From Rhodothermales bacterium (GTDB lineage Bacteria; Bacteroidota; Rhodothermia; Rhodothermales; JANQRZ01), in NCBI GenBank assembly GCA_028284265.1, contig JANQRZ010000006.1, forward strand, positions 62,001-126,000: 64,000 nt of DNA, written 5' to 3'. Each line of letters begins with the position of its first letter. The stretch's first letter is position 1. The position numbers and the translations under genes are program-made. A model generated the notes under the pieces. The model was not told where the DNA came from and made no database searches. It worked only from the letters and a program-made list of their open reading frames with translations. This document shows, one piece after another, positions 49,057-51,543 of this stretch.

Positions 49057-50096
49057 CAGGAGGACGGATAGGAAAAGCTGGAGCCGAGGCCCGACTCTTC
49101 GGGGTTGCGCTTCTCGGCGATACGCAGGCGGGCGCTCCGGGCGCGCGGGTTGGCCTCGACCTCGGCGTCGCTCGCGGTGATAGGCTTGCGCGTGAGAAGC
49201 GTCCACGGCGTGAGGAGGTTGCCGTAGAAGTCGCGCATCGGTTCGCCCGCGAAGTTGCCATAGCGGAGGAACTGCTTGGCCCGCCGGTCCTCCAGCGAGT
49301 GGTAGGCGATGACGGCCATCCGTCCACCGGGGCGAAGCACGCGCAGCCCGGCGATGAGGGCGCGCTCCAGCACACCCAACTCATCGTTGACCGCGATGCG
49401 GAGCGCTTGGAAGACGCGGGCGAGCGTCTTCAATTCCTCGCGATGGTAGGTCGCGGCACGAATGACGTCAGCGAGCTTGCCGGTCGTCTCGATGGGTCGG
49501 GCCTCGATGAGGGCGCGAACGATCTTCGGGGCGCGCGGCTCCTCACCGTAGGCACGGAAGATGTGAATGAGGTCTTCCGGCTCCGCGCGGTTGACGAGGT
49601 CGGCGGCGGTCAGTGGCGCGTCGGTGTCCATCCGCATATCGAGTGGGCCGCTCGCGGCGTAGGCAAACCCGCGCCCCGCCTCGTCGATCTGGTGCGACGA
49701 CACGCCGAGGTCAAGGAGCAGGCCATCCACCTGATCGATGCCCGCTTCGGCGAGCAGCCGTTCGAGATCGCCGAAGTTGCCGCGGAGGGTGCGGAAACGT
49801 CCAGCCTCTGCTGCACCGGCCAGCCGAGCCTCGGCCGTCGCCAGCGCCTCGGGGTCTTGGTCGATCCCAACAACCCGACCGTTCTCTCTGAGTACGTCGA
49901 GCAGCGCCGCTGCATGACCACCACCGCCGAGCGTACCGTCGACGTAGGTGCCTGCCAGATCCGTCACGAGTCCGTCGACAACCTCTTTATAGAGAACCGG
50001 CGCATGGTAGCCCGTCGCGTAGGGCGCGGGCTGCTCAGAATGAGGCCGGTCGGCGCATCGGGTCATAGGGTCGAGGGAAAAGGTGGTCGTCGTCAT
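49056..50096 (-). CDS. rsmH: 16S rRNA (cytosine(1402)-N(4))-methyltransferase RsmH (MraW)
   Basis: A 346-residue SAM-dependent methyltransferase. Family motifs are GYHAPVLYKEVVDGL, the SAM loop YVDGTLGGGGHAAALLD, LLLDLGVSSHQID, GPLDMRMD, and the late PGGRMAVIAYHSLEDRRAKQF. The start overlaps the mraZ stop (4-bp ATGA overlap). Confidence 0.97.
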   Translation of the reverse strand: MTTTTFSLDPMTRCADRPHSEQPAPYATGYHAPVLYKEVVDGLVTDLAGTYVDGTLGGGGHAAALLDVLRENGRVVGIDQDPEALATAEARLAGAAEAGRFRTLRGNFGDLERLLAEAGIDQVDGLLLDLGVSSHQIDEAGRGFAYAASGPLDMRMDTDAPLTAADLVNRAEPEDLIHIFRAYGEEPRAPKIVRALIEARPIETTGKLADVIRAATYHREELKTLARVFQALRIAVNDELGVLERALIAGLRVLRPGGRMAVIAYHSLEDRRAKQFLRYGNFAGEPMRDFYGNLLTPWTLLTRKPITASDAEVEANPRARSARLRIAEKRNPEESGLGSSFSYPSS

Positions 50097-50572
50097 GCTG
50101 CCCCCTCGGTTCCGCTAAGGCGACCGTTCAGATTGCCCATCACCATCTCGGCAATCTCTTCCTTCGAGGTAGACCGGTCGTCGAGGTAGTCCTCATACCG
50201 CGCCGGGTCCCAGACCTCAATGTGGTCGAGCGCGCCGATGACGAGCGCGGTGTCGCCGAGGTCAGCTTCGAGCATCAACTCCTTCGGGAGCACGATCCGA
50301 CCCTGCTTGTCGAGTGAAACTTCCTCGGCCCAGCGAAGGGTGTCGCGGATAAAGAGGCGGGTCTCGCTGTTGAACTGGTTGAGCCGATCGAACTCATCCT
50401 CCATCTGCTCCCAGCGGTCGTTGGGATAGAGAGCGATGCACTGATCGAAACCAAGTGTGGCCGTGAACGTGTTGTTTGCCTCGGGCGTGAGGACACGGCG
50501 CATCTTGGCCGGGATCGCCAAGCGACCCTTCTCGTCTACCGAGTTTTCAGCCTGTCCTTTGAAGCGTGCCAT
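50093..50572 (-). CDS. mraZ: Transcriptional regulator MraZ
   Basis: A 159-residue protein with two SpoVT/AbrB-like half domains: NSVDEKGRLAIPAKMRRVL at the N-terminus and VSLDKQGRIVLPKELML in the middle, each with the DKxGRxxxP motif. MraZ rings bind repeated TGGG boxes before their own gene and adjust dcw transcription; such boxes are present at 50615-50640. It is the first gene of the operon. Confidence 0.96.
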   Translation of the reverse strand: MARFKGQAENSVDEKGRLAIPAKMRRVLTPEANNTFTATLGFDQCIALYPNDRWEQMEDEFDRLNQFNSETRLFIRDTLRWAEEVSLDKQGRIVLPKELMLEADLGDTALVIGALDHIEVWDPARYEDYLDDRSTSKEEIAEMVMGNLNGRLSGTEGAA

Positions 50573-50614
50573 CGCGAGGTCTGGAAGTCGGCGGCAGGGA
50601 GGGCGTGGTCAGAC

Positions 50615-50640
50615 TCCCCACTTTTCCCCACCGGCTCCCA
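50615..50640 (-). promoter_or_regulatory. MraZ operator: three TGGG boxes at 10-bp period
   Basis: Read on the minus strand, TGGGAG, TGGGGA and TGGGGA are separated by 4 bp each, giving an exact 10-bp period on one DNA face (50635-50640, 50625-50630, 50615-50620). This is the known arrangement of MraZ binding boxes upstream of mraZ and predicts autoregulation of the dcw operon. Confidence 0.85.
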
Positions 50641-50655
50641 AAGTAGCACGCATAT

Positions 50656-50686
50656 ATCATAAATCAAGCAGAAACGCCAAAATCAA
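50656..50686 (-). promoter_or_regulatory. Possible mraZ promoter
   Basis: On the minus strand TTGATT (50681-50686) and TATGAT (50656-50661) are separated by 19 bp, slightly long for a sigma-70-like promoter. The position just upstream of the MraZ boxes fits repression of initiation. The call is weak. Confidence 0.3.
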
Positions 50687-50767
50687 GCTGTTTTTGTGGA
50701 TAAAAAAGAAGCCCCGCAAAGCCTGCACATATACTCTTCTTGCTCGACCTCACAAAATACCCCTAGG

Positions 50768-50787
50768 GGTGAAATCATTATCACCTC
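50768..50787. promoter_or_regulatory. Palindromic operator 1 (GGTGA-N8-TCACC)
   Basis: An 18-bp dyad with half-sites GGTGA and TCACC separated by 8 bp, extended to 20 bp by CT/TC. Together with the copy at 50807-50826 it forms a perfect 20-bp inverted repeat. The N8 spacing equals that of classical LexA boxes, though the half-site differs. It is probably bound by the adjacent LexA-like protein. Confidence 0.6.
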
Positions 50788-50806: not shown

Positions 50807-50826
50807 GAGGTGATAATGATTTCACC
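50807..50826. promoter_or_regulatory. Palindromic operator 2, inverted copy of operator 1
   Basis: The exact reverse complement of 50768-50787, 19 bp away and 69 bp before the LexA-like start codon. Each copy is itself a dyad (GGTGA-N8-TCACC), which argues for two protein-binding sites rather than a terminator. Confidence 0.6.
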
Positions 50827-50895
50827 AAATCAGATTACTGGGGAACACATATCCTTCGTGCTTCGTGATTCTGCTCCGCCCCCCACGCCGCCACT

Positions 50896-51543
50896 ATGCC
50901 TTCTGCCCACCTCACCAAGCGCCAAGATCAGGTCTACGAGCACATTCGTACCTACGTCCGTGAACAGGGAAAACCGCCGACGCTCAAGGAGATCGGCAAG
51001 GCGCTTTCGATCCGCTCGACCAACGGCGTATCCAAGCACCTCTACGCGCTCGAACAGAAGGGCTACATCCGCCGCACTCCGAATGAGGCACGCGGCATCT
51101 CCCTCATCGACGCAGGCACCGATCCCTTTGCGTTCGACACCCCCCCGCCCAACCTCCTCCTCGTAAGCCGGACCGACAGCGCCCGGCCCGACCGTCTCCG
51201 CCGACGTCCGAAGGGCGCTCTCTTTACCGACCCGTTCTTTCTGAATGGTGCCGACGAAGAAGACTGCCTATTCGGTCGTGCTGGGGATGCCGGGATGGCT
51301 AGGGCGGGCATCCTGAAAGGGGACTATCTCATGATCGAGGAGATGAAGTGGCGACGAGTCAAAGATGGTGACATCGTCGCAGCCCTCATCGGCGAGTCTC
51401 TCCTCGCCCGCGAGTTCCATCTCATCGACAACAAGTTTCACCTCAAGGCGATGGACCGCACCTATCGCAAGGAAGTCTTCAGCGTCAAGGACCCCGGCTG
51501 CCATATCATCGGGCCGGTCCGAAGTGTGATGCGCCAGTTGTAG
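50896..51543 (+). CDS. LexA-like repressor with degenerate S24 protease domain
   Basis: A 215-residue protein with the LexA layout. The N-terminal winged helix (about 1-70) matches the family well: LTKRQDQVYEHIRTYV, GKPPTLKEIGKALSI, GVSKHLYALEQKGYIRR. The C-terminal part keeps the fold motif AGILKGDYLMIEE and GDIVAALIGE. The nucleophile Ser expected before Met134 is Gly133, the catalytic Lys is Ala171, and the Ala-Gly cleavage site around 94-97 reads DSAR. It is therefore probably not self-cleaving. It diverges from mraZ across a region with a twin operator. It is a paralogue or an altered SOS regulator; whether it controls DNA repair cannot be told here. Confidence 0.88.
   Translation: MPSAHLTKRQDQVYEHIRTYVREQGKPPTLKEIGKALSIRSTNGVSKHLYALEQKGYIRRTPNEARGISLIDAGTDPFAFDTPPPNLLLVSRTDSARPDRLRRRPKGALFTDPFFLNGADEEDCLFGRAGDAGMARAGILKGDYLMIEEMKWRRVKDGDIVAALIGESLLAREFHLIDNKFHLKAMDRTYRKEVFSVKDPGCHIIGPVRSVMRQL

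Follow-up and report, generated by a model that had tools for sequence, protein, structure and literature searches.

What does a LexA-type repressor do once it can no longer cut itself, and why should it sit opposite the dcw cluster? This question is raised by gene A (50896..51543, plus strand), which encodes the 215-residue protein P0001 in the 64-kb window analyzed here, the whole stretch of Rhodothermales DNA under study. Its open reading frame, domain profiles, and alignments identify P0001 as a full-length LexA-type protein with a winged helix and an S24 domain: LexA_DNA_bind (PF01726) scores 78 bits over residues 5–67, in keeping with the original prediction that the DNA-binding domain is well kept, and Peptidase_S24 scores 36.5 bits over residues 122–208. 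In the AlphaFold model (pLDDT 76, with a poorly modeled linker) both domains match LexA, the N-terminal one matching the LexA DNA-binding domain. The score against the NCBIfam lexA equivalog (TIGR00498) is 103.8 bits, under the cut-off of 110.95.

The residues used by LexA for self-cleavage are missing. P0001 was compared with E. coli LexA in a MAFFT alignment of 48 full-length family members including P0001, in which the E. coli sequence agrees with the PDB chains, and by profile alignment with LexA chains of known structure. Both place Gly133 at the position of the catalytic Ser119 and Arg172 at that of Lys156, with Ser95-Ala96 in place of the scissile Ala84-Gly85 bond, an equivalence that rests on sequence alignment rather than on residue-by-residue superposition. 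P0001 thus has neither the Ser-Lys dyad nor the Ala-Gly cleavage site of self-cleaving LexA, and is best described as a relative of the SOS repressor that is predicted to be incapable of self-cleavage. The original prediction had already named Gly133 and the replaced scissile bond; it took Ala171 for the general-base Lys, which both alignments rule out in favor of the next residue. Since there is no Lys in either place, the slip leaves the conclusion on the lost dyad unchanged.

These substitutions are shared by a whole family. A search of 114 genomes of the order found orthologues of gene A (family A) in many families, and by profile search 49 genomes carry it, among them Rhodothermus, Roseithermus, Salinibacter, and Salinivenus, with the gene intact in nearly all. 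Across the 48 full-length orthologues the Ser119 position is Gly in 47 and Ala in one, the Lys156 position is always Arg, and the dyad and Ala-Gly site are missing throughout. Conservation of these substitutes on such a scale rules out chance or sequencing error. The family has its own motif, GDDGM (GDAGM in P0001), and most members conserve the former cleavage loop as SRTxS[DHA]xPxxLR. Loss of the self-cleavage residues is ancestral to family A and is not local decay; the original prediction of a LexA derivative without self-cleavage machinery, comparable to cyanobacterial LexA, stands, except that the loss belongs to the family and not to this genome. The C-terminal half is under purifying selection (dN/dS about 0.15–0.32 between close relatives). 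In a tree with several long branches, family A forms one group (support 83/94) separate from the ordinary LexA of the order, family B (100/99). No family A member turned up outside Rhodothermales in a search of 245 genomes across the class; the best candidates, scoring at most 86 bits, were at the level of ordinary LexA and were rejected. In genus g38, diverged proteins occupy the mraZ-facing place, three with MPDDSM, in which Ser is kept (L066–L068), and one with PDNGM (L084), all with Arg in place of the Lys and with GTGTA-type operators; they perhaps mark an intermediate stage or arose as a separate replacement.

Gene A has also kept its place. It is divergent from mraZ (50093..50572, minus strand), the first gene of the dcw (division and cell-wall) cluster, which is followed on the same strand by rsmH, an ftsL-like gene, ftsI, and murE, all named in the window from sequence recognition and gene order rather than by family search. 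That the gene faces the dcw operon was part of the original prediction, and the arrangement is conserved across the order: it recurs in nearly every locus examined, with about 200–430 bp between start codons, and holds even for the MPDDSM group and for G015, where gene A is broken into two fragments (L082). The exceptions are a second copy of gene A in G076, and G051, discussed below. In G053 the spacer is 812 bp long and gene A is interrupted by an internal stop. On the mraZ side, the spacer of the window contains a predicted mraZ promoter (CTTGAT, 17 bp, TACTTTG; 50639..50668, minus strand), kept in relatives as CTTGACTTT...TGTACCTTG, and MraZ boxes reading GTGGGGAAAAGTGGGGAG on the minus strand (50614..50631), a repeat that 51 of 53 spacers share. 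In E. coli and Mycoplasma genitalium, MraZ is a repressor of the cluster that contains its gene (PMC8475190). The spacer of the window also holds a perfect DnaA box, TTATCCACA (50695..50703, minus strand); 15 of the 53 spacers of relatives have one, against 0.2 expected.

Footprinting of the 53 distinct spacers yielded an 18-bp palindrome, GGTGAAAATATTTTCACC, of the pattern GGTGA-N8-TCACC, which usually occurs twice in a spacer. The window holds two copies, each with a position weight matrix (PWM) score of 22.6: a distal one, GGTGAAATCATTATCACC (50768..50785), and a proximal one, GGTGATAATGATTTCACC (50809..50826), which starts 41 bp from the first. No other site in the 64 kb scores above 7. 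Most of the 53 spacers reach a score above 12 at one site or more, as do 0.5% of shuffled ones; in a few, such as L100, no operator was found. The spacer of G015, with its broken gene A, likewise gave none. All 45 two-copy spacings fall at 22, 31–33, 41–43, or 54 bp, near whole helical turns, although they come from related sequences and amount to four spacing classes rather than 45 independent events. P0001 combines the traits of its family: Asp-x-Gly-Met with Arg at the Lys position, divergence from mraZ, and paired GGTGA-N8-TCACC operators.

The operator is nearly private to this locus. If the 16-bp core may differ at one position at most, the 114 genomes contain 16 sites, every one of them, that of G051 included, in an mraZ upstream spacer; they come from 13 genomes, each of which carries gene A. 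Allowing two mismatches, a hand count places 33 of 40 sites there, among the matches listed for A-bearing genomes. In the genome of the window, up to three mismatches retrieve the two operator copies and one weak site. A wide regulon was sought and not seen at one to three mismatches, and no close site was found at SOS genes, close sites being confined to the mraZ spacer, though weaker ones are possible. Eight other exact GGTGA-N8-TCACC matches were set aside; they have no A/T-rich center and most are G+C-rich.

Downstream of the proximal operator lies a weak -10-like element, ATTACTGG (50834..50841, plus strand), picked out by eye where relatives have TAnnTTTG, which we infer to be the -10 element of gene A. 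When spacers are anchored on the operator, a TAnnTTTG-like element follows the proximal copy by 4–10 bp in many genomes, which places the core promoter of gene A beneath the operator; the Rhodothermus counterpart reads TATCTTTG. The alternative -10 candidate CACATAT was set aside, as TAnnTTG-like elements lie nearer the operator. Taken together, the loss of dyad and cleavage site, conservation across the family, synteny, and the operator with its phasing, its near-uniqueness, and its absence from the G015 spacer, where gene A is broken, make it probable that P0001 is a RecA-independent autorepressor, likely cooperative, with essentially one target region; the weakness of the -10 element in this genome and the few spacers with no operator found speak against such autorepression.

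The proposed mechanism runs as follows. P0001, presumably a dimer, would bind both copies of GGTGAAAATATTTTCACC in the spacer shared with mraZ, and as these lie whole helical turns apart, two dimers would be aligned on one face of the helix, where they probably bind cooperatively. Occupation of the proximal operator just upstream of the -10 element would block transcription of gene A, and the spacer would constitute essentially the whole P0001 regulon. Derepression would proceed without RecA-stimulated self-cleavage, in response to some other signal, possibly sensed by a conserved, remodeled pocket of Asp131, Gly133, Met134, and Arg172 together with the former cleavage loop, also conserved. 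The nature of this signal, and any effect on mraZ or dcw, are speculative.

A repressor with its own gene as sole target is unusual, and a second target, either mraZ or a set of weaker sites, may therefore have been missed. Control of dcw by P0001, in line with the original prediction's idea of a division regulator, is a plausible conjecture. A stronger version makes this its main job: acting on the mraZ promoter from upstream, alongside MraZ and perhaps DnaA, P0001 would link division to a signal, and autoregulation would be secondary. We regard this version as possible, at somewhat less than even confidence. It is favored by the divergent placement fixed over the whole order, by the frequency of DnaA boxes in the spacers, and by the report that the E. 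coli dcw cluster is regulated by PdhR and LexA (PMC3265435). It also draws on G051, in which gene A has moved off (L215/L216, contigs C308/C283) while both operators remain upstream of mraZ and none was found near the relocated gene, a split that fits poorly with autoregulation as the sole function. However, the mraZ promoter and MraZ boxes are separated from the nearer operator by about 100 bp and occupy the opposite end of the spacer, so that the operators do not overlap that promoter, and G051 is a single draft assembly whose rearrangement is possibly a natural experiment, possibly an assembly artefact.

The original prediction proposed a search for a second, catalytically complete lexA. 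A second LexA does exist, as the only other protein in this genome with a LexA_DNA_bind match over the cut-off; it adjoins recO (C5:10196-10834; L002 1408-2154) and corresponds to B, the ordinary LexA of the order, yet it too is without Ser, Lys, and Ala-Gly. B is dead also in both relatives from the window's family, making three genomes, and in genomes of family f11 (dead loci besides L002 are L046, L049, L054, and L197–L202), whereas most other B proteins retain all three features. The dead B proteins of the window's family and that of G042 form one clade (100/99); within the family, the B N-terminal domain is 90–93% identical and the C-terminal domain is drifting (53–72%). The only other S24 match in this genome lies in a separate open frame (C5:97806-98147), and no self-cleaving LexA was found in this assembly, estimated to be 97.9% complete. 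The congener G032 encodes two extra LexA-like proteins (L047, L048) with Ser, Lys, and Pro-Ala-Gly intact, for which the window's genome yielded no counterparts. The genome carries RecA; no Y-family polymerase (PF00817) was detected in it (G000) or in G032, and some occur in G033, from the other genus of the family. In Rhodothermus (family f10), seven genomes (G035–G041) have gene A and no match to B. B genes (L051, L063, and L077, for example) are preceded by weak direct repeats of the TGTGT-N6-TGTGT type, perhaps similar to the direct-repeat motif that LexA is reported to have in Balneolaeota (PMC7739468).

It is conceivable from the LexA-type DNA-binding domain, the presence of RecA, and the status of gene A as the only LexA-type match in Rhodothermus that P0001 keeps an SOS role and is inactivated after DNA damage through degradation by a cellular protease or through RecA contact without cleavage. 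This is improbable: the close operator sites, and most of those at two mismatches among the matches listed, lie in mraZ spacers and not at SOS genes, and most other A-bearing genomes keep a separate catalytic LexA. Still less credible is gene A as a decaying pseudo-repressor without function, for although the catalytic residues are missing and the gene is broken in G015 and stop-interrupted in G053, nearly all of the 49 genomes keep it intact under purifying selection, with strictly conserved substituted residues and with operators that stay with the gene.

The autorepressor proposed here can be placed among known LexA proteins. Like E. coli-type LexA (TIGR00498, family S24), P0001 has the same domain order, winged helix, and C-terminal fold, a palindromic operator, and likely autoregulation; it differs in having no Ser-Lys dyad or Ala-Gly site, in scoring below the equivalog cut-off, in its mraZ linkage, and in an operator, GGTGA-N8-TCACC, found at one locus rather than at SOS genes. 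LexA of Synechocystis PCC 6803 also has no Ala-Gly site or catalytic Ser and regulates without self-cleavage; it has many targets and is thought to be tuned by phosphorylation (PMC7567884). A non-cleaving LexA is therefore not a new kind of protein. P0001 differs from the Synechocystis protein in belonging to a Rhodothermales family, in carrying Arg where the Lys would be, and in having a motif of its own and a single target region. LexA B is a LexA-type protein of the same genomes but a separate clade, in which Ser, Lys, and Ala-Gly are mostly kept and the upstream repeats are not the A operator. The non-canonical LexA of Bacteroidetes, which controls SOS genes (PMC8565304), shares the S24 C-terminal domain and comes from a related phylum; it has a CI-like N-terminal domain in place of the LexA winged helix of P0001. 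In the open-access literature, we found no LexA paralogue kept across an order together with a conserved substitute site, a phased operator of its own, and linkage to mraZ, and nothing on MraZ with LexA and dcw, or on Rhodothermus with LexA, that describes this system.

A wider scenario, which we offer tentatively and consider rather doubtful as a whole, is that, early in Rhodothermales, a LexA paralogue was remade into a signal-gated switch without proteolysis and dedicated to dcw, its dead cleft and cleavage loop turned into a sensor, and that it outlived the SOS response in Rhodothermus and in the window's family, lineages that yielded no self-cleaving LexA. In any case, Rhodothermales have long kept, across the order, a LexA paralogue that lost proteolysis; its cleft is still conserved, its operator is private, and its place by mraZ is fixed. 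Given this place by dcw and its private operator pair, gene A appears to encode a regulator devoted to this locus, outside the usual SOS response. Rhodothermus and the genome studied here could pass for organisms with LexA and a standard SOS response, and in neither was a catalytically complete LexA found. What switches an uncuttable LexA-type repressor, and whether P0001 sets dcw expression, can now be tested.
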